NCBI RefSeq assembly: GCF_006716085.1
Contig: NZ_VFON01000001.1
Span: forward strand, 3,228,531 to 3,292,530
Source of the DNA: Leucobacter komagatae
Lineage (GTDB): Bacteria; Actinomycetota; Actinomycetes; Actinomycetales; Microbacteriaceae
DNA: 64,000 nt
Direction: 5' to 3'
The notes beneath the pieces were generated by a model, which worked only from the letters and a program-made list of their open reading frames with translations, was not told the DNA's origin and made no database searches. Below are positions 4,451 to 9,060 of this stretch, one piece after another (within the stretch, counting starts at the first letter, position 1; each line of letters starts with the position of its first letter). The translations under genes were made by a program, and so were the position numbers.

Positions 4451-4578
4451 CGCTGGCGTCAGCCTCGGGTTCATGGGAGTCTCCAAACTGCCCCTTGAAC
4501 GTTCCCTGGGCAGCAACTGGGCAGTAGCTGGGAGGCGCAACAACTTCTCTGATTGATTTGTGACGAATCCGGTCGCAC

Positions 4579-4595
4579 CTACGACCTATTCGTAG
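4579..4595. promoter_or_regulatory. Inverted repeat CTACGA-N5-TCGTAG upstream of the Asp23 operon
   Basis: A perfect 6-bp inverted repeat (4579-4584 and 4590-4595) lies 68 bp before the first Asp23 gene in a 213-bp intergenic region. Its placement suits an operator. No regulator can be assigned from sequence. Confidence 0.4.
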
Positions 4596-4663: not shown

Positions 4664-5179
4664 ATGGCTACCGAAGAGAAGAACACTAACGCCCCTGCGA
4701 CTGCCGAGGCCGCTGCCGCCTCACGTTCGGCTCAGGCGCCCGCTACCTCCTCCCGCGTTGACCGAGTGCAGTTCTCGCACTCGTCAGGCGAAGAAACCCC
4801 CTCCGAGGGGCGCACCATCGTCGCAGAGGGCGTCGTCGCAAAGATCGCTGGCATCGCCGCACGCGAGGTCTCCGGGGTCTACGCGCTCGGCGGCGGCGGG
4901 GCGCGCGCCCTCGGCGCGATCAGGGACGCAATGAACGCGACCGACCTCACGCAGGGCGTGAAGGTTGAGGTCGGTGAGACGCAGGCTGCCGCAGACATCA
5001 CGATCGTTGTCGACTACCCGGCCCCCATCCAGGAGGTCGCCGAGAACGTGCGCAGCGCCGTCGCGGGCGCCATTAGCCGCATGGTCGGGCTCGAGGTGGT
5101 CGAGGTGAACATCGACGTGAACGATGTCCACCTGCCGAGCGACGACGCTGACGACGACGAAGAGTCGCGCGTCTCATGA
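4664..5179 (+). CDS. Asp23/Gls24 family envelope stress response protein
   Basis: The 171-residue protein has a low-complexity Ala/Thr/Ser-rich N-terminus (1-40). The Asp23/Gls24 (DUF322) domain follows at about residues 45-160, recognisable by TIVAEGVVAKIAGIAAREVSGVYAL and by IxxxVxxxIxRMVGLEVVEVNI. In Gram-positives such proteins associate with the cytoplasmic membrane through AmaP and help the cell resist envelope stress. RBS GAGAGGA precedes the ATG. It is first in a tightly packed operon and overlaps the next gene by 4 bases (ATGA). It ends in an acidic tail rich in Asp. Confidence 0.92.
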   Translation: MATEEKNTNAPATAEAAAASRSAQAPATSSRVDRVQFSHSSGEETPSEGRTIVAEGVVAKIAGIAAREVSGVYALGGGGARALGAIRDAMNATDLTQGVKVEVGETQAAADITIVVDYPAPIQEVAENVRSAVAGAISRMVGLEVVEVNIDVNDVHLPSDDADDDEESRVS

Positions 5180-5367
5180 GCGCCACCGTCACCGGGGCGG
5201 CCATAGGCGCTGTGCTCGCCTTCGCGGGGCTCGTGTTCGGGTTCTGGGGCTTCCTGCTCGTCGCGATCCTTATGGGCCTCGGCGCCCTCGCGGGGCGCGT
5301 CGTGTCTGGCGAGCTTGACCTACGGGCACTCGCGGGCGTCTTCACAGGCAGGCGAACCTCGTCATGA
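5176..5367 (+). CDS. Small membrane protein of the Asp23 locus (DUF2273-like)
   Basis: The 63-residue product has two closely spaced hydrophobic segments (about 5-23 and 25-43), then a short basic tail ending in GRRTSS. Small proteins of this build (DUF2273-like) lie next to Asp23 and AmaP genes in Firmicutes and actinobacteria. It overlaps the preceding Asp23 gene and the following one by 4 bases each, so translation is probably coupled. Its role as membrane partner of the Asp23 proteins is inferred from this arrangement. Confidence 0.8.
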   Translation: MSATVTGAAIGAVLAFAGLVFGFWGFLLVAILMGLGALAGRVVSGELDLRALAGVFTGRRTSS

Positions 5368-5750
5368 GCGCCGCGGCCGTTGAAGCGCCAAGCCGTGCGA
5401 CGGTCGACCCCCACAGCGACACTCGGGGCGCCATCCGCGTCCAACCAAGAGCGCTTGAAAAAGCAGTCCGCGAGGCAGCGGCGACGTGTGCAGGGGCGCC
5501 GCGTGGCGACGTTCGAGTCGAACTCGCGGAGTGGGGCGGCGCCCTGACGGTTCGGATCGCCACAAAGTTGCCGATACCCGCGCTCGAACGCACCGAGGCC
5601 GTGCTGGCCGAGACACCCATAGTCGAGCGCGTTCGCGCGATGCAGCACGCGCTCGTTCGTGATCTCGCTCACCTCACAGGGCGCGACATTCGGCGAGTTT
5701 CGGTGACCGTTACTGGCGCGATCATCCCCGAACGAAAGCGGGTGAGATAA
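5364..5750 (+). CDS. Asp23/Gls24-like protein, short paralogue
   Basis: The 128-residue product resembles the core of an Asp23/Gls24 domain: an N-terminal IRVQPRALEKAVREAAA helix, a VRVELAEWGGALTVRIATKLPIP strand pair, and a final helix leading to VSVTVTGAII. It is shorter and more divergent than the first protein of the operon. It probably forms mixed complexes with it at the membrane (inference). The start overlaps the previous gene by 4 bases. The stop codon TAA is directly followed by the ATG of the next gene. Confidence 0.75.
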   Translation: MSAAAVEAPSRATVDPHSDTRGAIRVQPRALEKAVREAAATCAGAPRGDVRVELAEWGGALTVRIATKLPIPALERTEAVLAETPIVERVRAMQHALVRDLAHLTGRDIRRVSVTVTGAIIPERKRVR

Positions 5751-6329
5751 ATGGCACACGATGTCCTCACGAGGGTCGTGCGACGGGAGACACACTCACC
5801 GCGCACGGTCGCCACGGTCGCCACGCTCGCCGTTGTCGTGGCTCTTGCGGTGTACGTCGGGATCGAGCTCGTACTGCACCTTCTCGGAGCTGCGCCGCTG
5901 CTCGCAAGGCCAGCGGAGGCGCTCGACTGGGTCGCTGCAGCCCCCTTTGAGAGCGCCGGAACGATGGCCATGGCAGCTGTCGTCGCTGTGCTCGGCCTCG
6001 TGCTCGTCGTGCTTGCGATCACGCCCGGCCGGCGGTCTCGACACGAGATCATGGGGCCTCCCCACGCCGTCGTCGTGGACAACGGCGTGGTCGCTGCGGC
6101 TGTCGCCGACAGGGTACGCCGAGAGCTCGACCTCTCGGCGGGAGGGGCGACCGTTGGCATTGCGCACCGCAGTGCTGACGTCACCGTGCGGCCCGAGCCC
6201 GGCCAGGTGATCGAACCCGCTCGCGTACGTGAGATCGCGGCCGACGAGCTCGCGGGGTACGGCCTCACCCCGCGCGTGCGGGTTCGAGCGCGCGTGCTCT
6301 CGAAAGCGCCGGAGGGAGATACCGCATGA
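5751..6329 (+). CDS. Two-TM membrane protein of the Asp23 locus (DUF6286-like)
   Basis: This 192-residue protein has two strong transmembrane segments (about residues 19-42 and 60-83, the latter LVLVVLAITPGRR-like) and a cytoplasmic C-terminal domain of ~100 residues. That domain repeats Asp23-like features (VVAAAVADRVRRELDLS, ADVTVRPEPG). Proteins of this type sit in actinobacterial Asp23 clusters and resemble DUF6286. The ATG is immediately after the previous stop, and the 3' end overlaps the following gene by 4 bases. A scaffold role for Asp23 proteins at the membrane is inferred. Confidence 0.75.
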   Translation: MAHDVLTRVVRRETHSPRTVATVATLAVVVALAVYVGIELVLHLLGAAPLLARPAEALDWVAAAPFESAGTMAMAAVVAVLGLVLVVLAITPGRRSRHEIMGPPHAVVVDNGVVAAAVADRVRRELDLSAGGATVGIAHRSADVTVRPEPGQVIEPARVREIAADELAGYGLTPRVRVRARVLSKAPEGDTA

Positions 6330-6943
6330 ACGCAACGAATCGCGCGGTGAACCGCATCGTGCTGTGCGTCGTCGGGCTCGCACTCTTCGCCGCAGGAGCG
6401 ATCACCGCAGCCGCAGCCGTCTCACCGGACGCGCGACGGTTCTGGGAGTCATTCGTTGACGGCGCTGGAAAGTGGCTCGTCGATACTGACGCGGCAACAC
6501 GAATTCACGAATCGACGACGCTGAGCTGGCTCTCAGCCGGAGTGCTGGCGCTACTCGTCGTCATCGTCACCGTGGCCGTCATCATCGTTCTCCGGCTCGG
6601 CGGGGGTCGCAGCAGCACCGTGACCCGATCTGAGGCGATCGACGGCGCGATTGGCCCCGTGACGGTGTTGCAGGGGTTCGCGCAGGACGCGCTCGGAGAA
6701 TCGCTTCACCGCGACGAGAGCATCCTCGCCGCGAAGGTCACCACGAGCCGTATCCGGGGGGAAGACGTGCTGCACGTCGCTGTGACCCCAAGACAAAACG
6801 CGTCACCCATCATCACTGCACGGACAGTGACGACACTCGTCGACAACCTCGCCAGGTTGACCGGAGCTAAGACTCCGACCTTCGTGTCGATACACGCGGG
6901 CCTGCGGTCGAAGCTCGCCGCAGACCAGGCTAGGGTGCGCTAG
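6326..6943 (+). CDS. AmaP-like Asp23 membrane anchor protein
   Basis: The 205-residue product has two transmembrane helices (about 8-30 and 70-92) separated by ~40 extracytoplasmic residues, then a cytoplasmic domain. This is the layout of alkaline shock response membrane anchor protein AmaP, which tethers Asp23 to the membrane. The C-terminal domain (DGAIGPVTVLQGFAQDAL through VTPRQNASP) is Asp23-like. It is the last of the five overlapping genes that start at 4664. A short CCCCG/CGGGG hairpin follows the stop. Confidence 0.75.
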   Translation: MNATNRAVNRIVLCVVGLALFAAGAITAAAAVSPDARRFWESFVDGAGKWLVDTDAATRIHESTTLSWLSAGVLALLVVIVTVAVIIVLRLGGGRSSTVTRSEAIDGAIGPVTVLQGFAQDALGESLHRDESILAAKVTTSRIRGEDVLHVAVTPRQNASPIITARTVTTLVDNLARLTGAKTPTFVSIHAGLRSKLAADQARVR

Positions 6944-6958
6944 CCCCGTTCGGCGGGG
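6944..6958 (+). terminator. Short GC hairpin between AmaP-like gene and next small gene
   Basis: CCCCG (6944-6948) and CGGGG (6954-6958) form a 5-bp stem directly after the stop codon. It is too short to be a firm terminator and may only attenuate read-through into the next small gene. Confidence 0.3.
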
Positions 6959-6983
6959 AACGGCGCTGAGGGAGAGGAAGAGC

Positions 6984-7199
6984 ATGTTGAAGAACTTGAT
7001 GATCGTCGCAGTGATTGGTGCGGCGGCCTACTGGGTCGGCGTGGAGTCAGCCAAGTCGCGAGGCAAGAACTACGAAGATCTTCGCCATCAGATCGAACGC
7101 TTGTGGACGAGCCCGGAAGCGACGAAAGCGCGGAAGAAGCGGGCGAAGAAGGCGCAGCGTCTCATGAAGAAAGCCCAGAAGCGGGTGCTGAGCGCGTAG
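6984..7199 (+). CDS. Small single-TM, Lys/Arg-rich protein
   Basis: The 71-residue product has one N-terminal hydrophobic segment (residues 4-20). A glutamine/arginine helix follows, then a very basic tail (KARKKRAKKAQRLMKKAQKR). RBS GGAGAGGAAG lies just upstream of the ATG. Similar short proteins close actinobacterial Asp23 clusters. I do not recognise a defined family. A membrane-tethered nucleic-acid or phospholipid-binding role is only a guess from the charge. Confidence 0.65.
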   Translation: MLKNLMIVAVIGAAAYWVGVESAKSRGKNYEDLRHQIERLWTSPEATKARKKRAKKAQRLMKKAQKRVLSA

Positions 7200-7257
7200 C
7201 GCCGGTACCCGCGTCTCACCCATCACCATCACTACCACCACCAAACAGGAGGACACG

Positions 7258-7326
7258 ATGAGCGCAGGAGACAAGATCAAAGCCCCGGGTGCGCTTGAAG
7301 CCGTCACGGACACGTTTACGGACTAA
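7258..7326 (+). CDS. 22-codon ORF with strong RBS, CsbD-like start (possible remnant)
   Basis: An ATG at 7258 preceded by AGGAGG (7248-7253) opens a 22-residue peptide beginning MSAGDKIKA. This start resembles CsbD-type stress proteins, which often lie near Asp23 genes, but the frame stops after 22 codons and the rest does not match CsbD. It could be a decayed csbD or a genuine small peptide. The strong RBS and the terminator hairpin that follows argue that it is translated. Confidence 0.4.
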   Translation: MSAGDKIKAPGALEAVTDTFTD

Positions 7327-7362
7327 CGCGCTCGGGGCGAGGCTCAAACAGCCCCACCCCGA

Positions 7363-7401
7363 GGTCGCCTTGGCTGTGGAATCCCCACAGCCAAGGCGAC
7401 C
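7363..7401 (+). terminator. Perfect 17-bp hairpin terminator of the Asp23 operon
   Basis: Two perfectly complementary 17-base arms (7363-7379 and 7385-7401, core CGCCTTGGCTGTGG) are separated by 5 bases. It follows the small ORF ending at 7326. There is no T-tract, but the length of the stem makes a transcription end very likely. Confidence 0.75.
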
Positions 7402-7532
7402 AGAACAGCTTCGATATACGGAAACAGACAAACTCAGGCCCACTGAACGGTCGCCTACCGAGGATGGACATAGCAGCTTTCGGGCCGCACACAGACTCCG
7501 CAGAACGGCCAGCGCCACGAGGGGAGCGATGG

Positions 7533-8099
7533 ATGAGGGAAGAGCAGCACCGCGATGAGTTCGCTGCGGCCACCGACAGGATCCTCGCCGGGCGCGCTGC
7601 TGACGGAGACGCCGAGGCATTCGCCGCGCTCGTGCGAAGATACGCGCCCATGATGAGCGCCTACGCCAGGCGAATCTTGCCGGGTACATCCGAAATCGAT
7701 GATGTCGTCCAGGAGACGTTCATCACCGCGTGGGAGCAGCTGTCAACCCTTGAGCGCCCGGAACAGGTGAAGAGCTGGCTCATGAGAATCACGAGCCGGA
7801 AAGCGATCGACCGAATCAGGGCAACCAAAGTACACTCCGATTTCCAGGAGGTGGAGATCTCGGTGCCGCAGGCATCGGACCCGCCCCGCCGCGCTGAAGC
7901 TAGCGCGGGGGTTGCGGCGCTCGGCGAGGCGCTCGGCGAACTGCCTGATCGTGAACGTCAGTGCTGGGTGCTCCGAGAAATCGGCGGCCACAGCTACGAG
8001 GAGATCTCTGAGGAACTCGGGATCCCGCTTTCCACGGTGCGCGGGCAACTCGCGCGCGCCCGCAAACACATTATTGTTCGAATGGAGGAGTGGCGATGA
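7533..8099 (+). CDS. RNA polymerase sigma factor, sigma-70/ECF type
   Basis: The ~188-residue product shows a region 2 (FAALVRRYAPMMSAYARRIL, DDVVQETFITAWEQL) at about 25-90 and a region 4 (LGELPDRERQCWVLREIGG, YEEISEELGIPLSTVRGQLARARK) at about 130-185. This is the layout of ECF sigma factors that direct RNA polymerase to stress genes. The ATG at 7533 is preferred over 7464 because GAGGGGAG lies about 5-10 bases upstream. Its stop overlaps the ATG of the next gene (ATGA), which encodes an anti-sigma-like/Asp23 protein. It probably controls the neighbouring envelope-stress operon (inference). Confidence 0.9.
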   Translation: MREEQHRDEFAAATDRILAGRAADGDAEAFAALVRRYAPMMSAYARRILPGTSEIDDVVQETFITAWEQLSTLERPEQVKSWLMRITSRKAIDRIRATKVHSDFQEVEISVPQASDPPRRAEASAGVAALGEALGELPDRERQCWVLREIGGHSYEEISEELGIPLSTVRGQLARARKHIIVRMEEWR

Positions 8100-8710
8100 A
8101 TGCTTCGGACCATCGCGAGCTCCTCGGGCTAGGCCCCGAAGATCTTGATGGGTTTACCATCGAGGAGCTCTCCGACTACATGGAGGCGAACCGCACGCCC
8201 CCTGATTCACGCATAGAACAGTCAGCGGGTTGCCAGCTCGCCCTCGACGCACTTGAACGGTTGAAACGGGTAACACCCAGGTTGCTCGAAGCCGACGCGG
8301 CGGCCGCGCCGCCGATCGACGAGGGGTGGGTGCAGGGAGTGCTCGCGGGCCTCCGGCTCGACGCCCGGGCCGGGCGACGGATGCCCCTTGCGTCGTCAGC
8401 CACCAACGCCGACATCGGGATCACGGAGGGCGCCCTCAGAGCCATCGTTCGCAGCGCCGAACGAGTCGTGCCGGGAGTGTTCATTGGGAAGTGTGGGTTT
8501 CAAGGCGACATCACCGAGATCGGCGCCGCCGCCCGCGTAACCGTGGAGCTCAGTGTGCCGTTTGGGACATCGATTCCCCTGGCCGCCCGGGCCATTCGCG
8601 ACGCGATTCACACGCGACTCGCGACCCACACAACACTGCGTATTGAGGGCGTGGACGTCGCTGTGCACGACATCCACCACATCCCACACCAGACAGAGAA
8701 CGGACCATGA
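8096..8710 (+). CDS. Anti-sigma-like N-terminus joined to an Asp23-like domain
   Basis: The start is the ATG at 8096, in the ATGA overlap with the sigma-factor stop, with GGAGG upstream. Residues ~20-60 (EELSDYMEANRTPPD, IEQSAGCQLALDALERL) follow the helix pattern of zinc-associated anti-sigma domains, but only one cysteine remains and there is no HxxxCxxC. Residues ~100-200 resemble Asp23/Gls24 (ITEGALRAIVRSAERVVPGV, VELSVPFGTSIPLAARAI, LRIEGVDVAVHDI). No membrane segment is present. I infer a cytoplasmic regulator that binds the sigma factor and couples it to the Asp23 assembly at the membrane. Confidence 0.7.
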   Translation: MNASDHRELLGLGPEDLDGFTIEELSDYMEANRTPPDSRIEQSAGCQLALDALERLKRVTPRLLEADAAAAPPIDEGWVQGVLAGLRLDARAGRRMPLASSATNADIGITEGALRAIVRSAERVVPGVFIGKCGFQGDITEIGAAARVTVELSVPFGTSIPLAARAIRDAIHTRLATHTTLRIEGVDVAVHDIHHIPHQTENGP

Positions 8711-9060
8711 GTCAGGCACTTGAAGAACCCCTAGAACAAGCCCTTGAGCGCGCCATACGAGACGTGCCCGGGGTAACTGCTGTATTTCGGGCCGGGTCAC
8801 CGCTCGGGAAGGTTATCGAGGCAAGCGGCGAACTGCTGCGCGGCGAGCGGCGCCCTGGCTCGCTCGTGAAGGTCTCACGCACCGACGATGTTGTTGTCGC
8901 GATTGAAGTCGAGCTCGGGGTGAGCTCAGAAGCCAGCAGCGTGGATACCCTCGAGCGCGTCTACGCCGCTGTACTGGTGCTGTTGAGCACGCAGGGTCTC
9001 GAGCCCGGGCTCATTCGGCTGACGGTTGTGCACATCAGTGGCGAGGGCGCGGGGCTGTAG
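8707..9060 (+). CDS. Third, divergent Asp23-like protein
   Basis: This 117-residue protein overlaps the previous gene by 4 bases. The pattern IRDVPGVTAVFRAG, VVVAIEVELGVSSEASSVDTLERVYAAV and LTVVHISG is reminiscent of the Asp23 fold (VxGVxxV, strand, helix, strand). It has no transmembrane segment. Its position as last gene of the sigma operon suggests it works with the anti-sigma/Asp23 protein. The assignment to Asp23 is by pattern and is uncertain. Confidence 0.6.
   Translation: MSQALEEPLEQALERAIRDVPGVTAVFRAGSPLGKVIEASGELLRGERRPGSLVKVSRTDDVVVAIEVELGVSSEASSVDTLERVYAAVLVLLSTQGLEPGLIRLTVVHISGEGAGL

Follow-up and report, generated by a model that had tools for sequence, protein, structure and literature searches.

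An ECF sigma factor and a predicted Asp23-domain anti-sigma factor beside the Asp23 operon of Leucobacter komagatae

What does a sigma factor of the extracytoplasmic function (ECF) type respond to, and what does it transcribe, when the gene behind it encodes a protein that ends in an Asp23 domain? We addressed this question in a 64,000-nucleotide stretch of the Leucobacter komagatae genome (contig NZ_VFON01000001.1; hereafter the window), in which genes for a sigma factor, a 204-amino-acid (204-aa) protein, and a 117-aa protein follow an operon that begins with an Asp23 gene. An earlier note, made from the DNA letters, had proposed that the 204-aa protein joins an anti-sigma-like N-terminus to an Asp23-like C-terminus, and that its Asp23 domain is the regulatory or sensory module of a sigma/anti-sigma pair that links envelope assembly to transcription. 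We consider it rather probable that the pair, in which the putative anti-sigma factor combines a domain derived from zinc anti-sigma (ZAS) proteins with an Asp23 domain, governs one main target, the neighboring Asp23 envelope operon, as a homeostat of the Asp23 layer.

The sigma factor and its Asp23-domain partner

The sigma protein matched the Pfam families Sigma70_r2 and Sigma70_r4_2 with 60.9 bits each and reached only 13.7 bits for region 3, under the cut-off of 25.3. With sigma-70 regions 2 and 4 and no region 3, it is an ECF sigma factor. The sigma, 204-aa, and 117-aa genes are joined by successive ATGA overlaps, the ATG of the 204-aa gene (8096) lying within the sigma stop codon; the earlier note had described the first of these overlaps and missed the second.

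The C-terminal half of the 204-aa protein is an Asp23 domain. It scored 28.4 bits against PF03780, just over the curated cut-off of 28, and a profile-to-profile comparison with the Asp23 family of the adjacent operon gave 95.6% in hhalign (E = 1.2e-8). In the AlphaFold model, the ten-residue blocks from residue 101 to 190 had mean predicted local distance difference test (pLDDT) values of 80-98.

The N-terminal half of the window protein had no family match of its own in the profile library scans, and AlphaFold predicted it as helical (residues 14-17, 22-30, 38-41, 44-70, and 76-91; predicted template modeling score 0.53 and 0.59 in two models). We therefore turn to its relatives, of which 163 were found with patterns that contain a degenerate form of the zinc motif, the best 80 of 163 being kept for locus counts. 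Of the 103 family proteins, ten, which share the two-domain layout, have intact C-H-C-C zinc ligands, and none of the 80 kept loci does; these values are not natural frequencies, because the selection patterns contain the degenerate motif. The ten ZAS-intact members share an invariant C15-G16...H34...C38-P39..C41, in which CG precedes the first helix and H-x3-C-P-x-C falls at the second helix. The corresponding columns of the window protein hold a gap, R, S, and C, the sole ligand kept being Cys46 (8231-8233), and the protein lacks the ZAS motif (H-x3-C-x2-C with a further ligand). Among the 93 degenerate members, the first ligand is absent in 93/93 and the His is found in 0/93, the second Cys has become Ser (91 members) or Asn (2 members), and the last Cys is kept in 92.

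We placed the 103 proteins on a tree (the window protein included; 100 different sequences, certain species represented twice, L004 and L033 identical). Loss of the zinc site appeared as one change in 98% of 200 bootstrap trees, with a branch support of 98/62 and a bootstrap that is not fully settled. By motif, then, the window protein falls outside the ZAS family, although by descent it comes from a ZAS protein. Profile comparisons point the same way. In hhalign against zf-HC2 domains, the N-terminal family, whose 77 rows include the 10 ZAS-intact members, gave 93.1% (E = 3.3e-7), those ten alone gave 94.7% (E = 5.8e-8), and an Asp23 control gave 0.1%; the comparison set comprised 14 of 15 domains from five genomes, one duplicate being omitted. 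The Pfam zf-HC2 model yielded sub-threshold matches only, to two of the ten ZAS-intact members. The best PDB profile match of the N-terminal family was 3hug_B (E = 0.0024 with A4, as the top match; E = 0.05 with A3, as the sole match), aligned in register with the H-C-C of the zinc motif; we take this chain to be RslA, the anti-sigma factor of sigma-L in Mycobacterium tuberculosis. These comparisons support the view that the N-terminus of the 204-aa protein descends from a ZAS-type anti-sigma domain.

Conserved adjacency and a candidate promoter

Among the named homologues of this protein, the nearest come from Leucobacter (Microbacteriaceae). A survey of gene adjacency, which the earlier note had called for, bore out the pairing: a sigma homologue lies directly upstream of the 204-aa homologue in all 80 loci, with the stop and start overlapping by the identical one-base step in 80/80. 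It also does so in 13 of 13 distant or divergent loci tested (L020, L023-L026, L028, L031, and L118-L123; L030 stands outside this set). Given this conserved overlap and the descent from zinc anti-sigma domains, the ECF sigma factor and the 204-aa protein are most simply a sigma/anti-sigma pair.

Asp23 belongs to the same neighborhood. Of the 80 loci, 65 have its homologue upstream of sigma and on the strand of sigma, 5 have it on the other strand in a head-to-head arrangement, and in 10 it was not seen. Less than 1.7 kb upstream of sigma is present in L046, L089, L090, L102, and L110, and Asp23 was not seen despite more than 1.7 kb in L063, L064, L073, L083, and L097. Across 69 Microbacteriaceae genomes, the 204-aa homologue and Asp23 were both present in 31, both absent in 38, and never mixed (Fisher p = 2.5e-20, uncorrected for relatedness; 8 of the 38 negative genomes are <90% complete or >5% contaminated). 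A PF03780 family search across these 38 genomes found no Asp23 domain. The island seems to be duplicated as a whole: G006 carries a second one with its own promoter, Asp23, DUF2273, DUF6286-like, AmaP-like, sigma, and 204-aa homologues (L203 and L268), and multiple copies of both Asp23 and the 204-aa protein also occur in G035, G057, G060, and G481.

Upstream of the window's Asp23 gene, 79 bp 5' of its start, we found the element TTTGTGAC-N17-CGAC (4557-4585). GTGAC-N17-CGTC is a conserved element: 64 of the 70 Asp23 upstream regions have it, whereas the best chance pair reached 6 to 8 loci in five sets of Markov shuffles, and random 310-bp windows from the same loci carried the element in 2.3 of 70 on average and in 7 at most. 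Its longer consensus reads TTTGTGACG...CGTCTTA. Among the six Asp23 upstream regions without the strict element, L033, L034, L087, and L101 have CGAC and L047 has GTGAT; none was found in L062. A looser form was recognizable by eye in L161, L162, L163, L168, L028, and L031. The element stays with Asp23 in all five head-to-head loci, and it stands directly before sigma in L063, L064, and L073, where no Asp23 was seen.

From the 25 congeners that carry the pair and the 29 that lack it, we took 16 each and scanned them for TTTGTGACRN16CGWCYNA, allowing at most one mismatch. The window element matches this pattern perfectly and is one of two sites at that threshold in the L. komagatae genome. The 16 Leucobacter genomes with the pair held 30 sites, which included the Asp23 promoter in 16/16 (17 sites, the two loci of G006 counting separately); 12 of their 13 perfect sites are Asp23 promoters, and the 16 sigma-less congeners held no perfect site. 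One perfect copy lies away from Asp23, at 1501-1532 of L221 (G016:C1:2439729-2439760), with no clear open reading frame (ORF) directly downstream.

In six distant genomes of the same class (6-10 Mb, perhaps Streptomyces- or Nocardia-like), which carry the ZAS-intact form, a variant, GTSACR-N14-GTGTCCWAC, or a near form lies before sigma in L118, L119, L120, L122, and L123 and before a divergent Asp23 gene in L120 and L123. For L118 and L119 the longest ORF for sigma begins right at the variant, and the true sigma start may be further in. Exact variant sites numbered six genome-wide, in 5 of the 6 distant genomes and all at the sigma/Asp23 locus, and six comparison genomes held one (G317). Since the promoter comes and goes with the pair, the Asp23-operon promoter is most simply the pair's target, and we infer that the window's sigma factor would recognize GTGAC-N17-CGTC.

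A possible homeostat and its rivals

We propose that the circuit would work in five steps: (i) the N-terminal helices of the 204-aa protein would keep sigma inactive, as their homology to ZAS anti-sigma domains suggests; (ii) its Asp23 domain would dock, like with like, on an Asp23 layer presumably held at the membrane by AmaP-like proteins; (iii) depletion or disturbance of the layer would alter docking and release sigma; (iv) free sigma would start transcription of the Asp23 operon at GTGAC-N17-CGTC; and (v) fresh Asp23 would rebuild the layer, and the anti-sigma factor would recapture sigma, which makes the loop a homeostat. In the distant relatives, where the variant element precedes sigma, the loop would therefore include autoregulation. 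The notion of layer sensing is helped by reports from Staphylococcus aureus, in which Asp23 forms filaments, AmaP tethers it to the membrane, and strains that lack asp23 or amaP show strong induction of the cell wall stress response (PMC6954212). In its most specific form, which we put forward only tentatively, the anti-sigma factor's Asp23 domain would gauge the Asp23 membrane layer through homotypic contact and sigma's one real target would be the operon of that layer. The result would be a homeostat with a single promoter that keeps count of what it makes, in which sensing of assembly has replaced the zinc sensor of its ancestors.

Several observations weigh against the homeostat. Searches of the N-terminal model against the PDB with Foldseek and VIA found no anti-sigma structure, a PDB profile search with the degenerate members alone (A9) found no anti-sigma factor, and 30 degenerate members alone (A9) resembled zf-HC2 weakly (23.5%, E = 8.7e-4). 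CTCTTA replaces CGTC in L161, L162, and L028, of which L161 and L162 are ZAS-intact congeners outside the 16 scanned with the pair. The element directly before the sigma gene is rare in Microbacteriaceae (3 to 5 of 80), and in the window a hairpin (7363-7401) separates the Asp23 operon from the sigma unit. The genome-wide patterns were derived from the same loci, and away from Asp23 the sites at one mismatch or fewer are about at background, with 13 in the 16 genomes with the pair versus 14 (in 9 genomes) in the 16 without; reversed-pattern controls gave 6 and 13, respectively. For the variant, L121 (G390) has the pair and no variant site, and one mismatch makes the pattern loose (56 sites in 12 genomes versus 26 for the reversed control). 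Transfer of the whole island could also cause the co-occurrence, and the direction of feedback is our choice.

If the pair is a switch for the Asp23 operon in which the Asp23 domain only places or dimerizes the protein, the signal would act on the anti-sigma domain, through zinc or thiols in ZAS-intact relatives and through Cys46 or proteolysis in the window; ZAS domains are reported to respond to oxidative stress (PMC8999054), and the last ligand Cys persists in nearly all degenerate members. We regard this as fairly unlikely, as three of four ligands have been lost, yet the Asp23 domain and the link to the Asp23 operon persist. A quite improbable reading makes the 204-aa protein a co-expressed accessory Asp23 subunit or a positive sigma cofactor, not an anti-sigma factor. 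The weak ZAS likeness of the degenerate-only profile and the empty Foldseek and VIA searches fit it, but ZAS-intact homologues are likewise encoded just behind a sigma homologue, and the stop/start overlap never varies among the 80 loci.

Another sigma factor might instead read GTGAC-N17-CGTC, with the pair serving other genes and the island merely traveling together, as its presence or absence as a whole, the pair without the element in G390, and the scarcity of the element directly before Microbacteriaceae sigma genes would allow. The variant element before sigma itself in five distant loci and the lack of perfect sites in the sigma-less congeners speak against this, and we judge it very improbable. 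The interpretation of the earlier note is supported in part. Descent, the Asp23 domain, adjacency, and a likely target promoter before the Asp23 operon bear it out; sigma binding and a sensory role of the Asp23 domain are predictions, and the N-terminal fold searches found nothing. As to the other checks that the note had suggested, comparison of the N-terminus with anti-sigma families gave matches when ZAS-intact members were included and none for the window protein itself, the C-terminus matched Asp23, and structure prediction returned a confident Asp23 domain and a helical N-terminus that has no anti-sigma fold match in the PDB.

If the circuit is right, an Asp23 domain is what actinobacteria use to measure their Asp23 layer, and the state of that layer could be followed with one promoter fusion. 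What Asp23 senses or builds would then become directly testable; its molecular function is described as still unclear (PMC6954212). ECF/Asp23 pairs, to our knowledge so far only predicted, would gain a domain explanation and a target promoter.

Other features and known systems

Features of the locus are collected in Table 1; the genes from 4664 to 9060 all lie on the + strand. The five-gene operon at 4664-6943, which the earlier note had called Asp23/AmaP-like, begins with Asp23 and DUF2273 genes, and none of the genes in 5364-6943 reached the AmaP (NF033218) cut-off of 55 bits (17.2, 16.6, and 20.1 bits). The 117-aa protein, the third Asp23-like gene product of that note, had no Pfam match at E <= 10, and its family profile gave 74% (E = 2.8e-5) in hhalign against Asp23. 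An ORF follows the 204-aa homologue in 80/80 loci, with the identical one-base step in 63 (at least 2 of the 80 were taken in the wrong frame), and the window's protein as a tblastn query matched in 48/80. The 117-aa protein is likely a partner in the putative sigma/anti-sigma complex.

Table 1. Features of the Leucobacter komagatae window and their supporting evidence
Feature	Position	Strand	Evidence or remark
Source	G000:C1:3228531-3292530		3.75-Mb genome
Predicted ECF-type promoter	4557..4588	+	-35 TTTGTGAC (4557-4564), N17, -10 CGAC (4582-4585), then CTA
Asp23 protein, 171 aa	4664..5179	+	PF03780, 92.4 bits
DUF2273 small membrane protein, 63 aa	5176..5367	+	PF10031, 28.0 bits, over cut-off 25.4
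128-aa Asp23-operon protein	5364..5750	+	Weak match to AmaP model, 17.2 bits (cut-off 55)
DUF6286-like protein, 192 aa	5751..6329	+	PF19803, 30.5 bits, under cut-off 35
AmaP-like protein, 205 aa	6326..6943	+	NF033218, 20.1 bits, under cut-off 55
Small operon protein, 71 aa	6984..7199	+	tblastn homologue in 21/80 loci
CsbD-type remnant, 22-codon ORF (MSAGDKIKA...TFTD)	7258-7326	+	Resembles both ends of CsbD-type gene
Perfect inverted repeat, 17 bp, 5-nt loop	7363..7401		Between Asp23 operon and sigma gene; no T run after it
188-aa ECF sigma factor with regions 2 and 4	7533..8099	+	Pfam; homologue adjacent in 80/80 loci
Likely anti-sigma factor, 204 aa: degenerate ZAS-type domain and Asp23 domain	8096..8710	+	Profiles, tree, ATGA overlap
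N-terminal helical anti-sigma-like domain, residues 14-91	8135..8368	+	AlphaFold helices
Asp23 domain of 204-aa protein, residues 95-195	8378..8680	+	Pfam, hhalign, pLDDT
Third, diverged Asp23-like protein, 117 aa	8707..9060	+	ATGA overlap with 204-aa gene; hhalign to Asp23

A gene that we take to be of the CsbD family lies within 1.3 kb 5' of sigma in at least 36 of the 80 related loci; the window copy seems to have lost its middle part. The hairpin at 7363-7401 may act as a terminator, an attenuator, or a processing site. Inverted repeats of at least 12 bp were found in the 400 bp 5' of sigma in 16/80 loci, versus 0/80 after one shuffle per stretch. We also note that the first 14.5 kb of G000:C1 and of G000:C2 have sequences in common in opposite orientation (C1:777/C2:13720; C1:10943/C2:3477), which reflects either a repeat or an assembly overlap.

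Our literature search found no experimental study of an ECF/Asp23 pair; the ECF classification paper may hold a promoter motif or a domain description. The groups ECF286 and ECF292 are the closest in gene context, and they reportedly stem from the ECF reclassification of Casas-Pastor et al. They adjoin soluble Asp23-family proteins predicted as anti-sigma factors, without experimental data (PMC8999054), so the earlier note's statement that no characterized case is known stands for experiment, whereas the prediction was already in print. The window's sigma gene likewise adjoins such a protein, a likeness of gene context only; section 2 of PMC8999054 describes neither a mechanism nor a domain layout nor a promoter for these groups. 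ChrR of Rhodobacter sphaeroides is similarly a soluble two-domain protein with an N-terminal anti-sigma domain and a possible C-terminal sensor (PMC8999054), but it combines ZAS with a cupin, whereas the window protein has Asp23 in place of the cupin and has lost the zinc site. RslA (3hug_B) shares the register of H-x3-C-x2-C as the top PDB profile match; unlike the window protein, it is listed as a probable membrane protein and has the full zinc motif, and the match is limited to the ZAS part of its 108-residue chain. In S. aureus, Asp23 depends on sigma B, and no Asp23-fused anti-sigma factor is known to us. There, as in the window, Asp23 occurs together with AmaP-type membrane proteins, although those of the window score under the AmaP cut-off.
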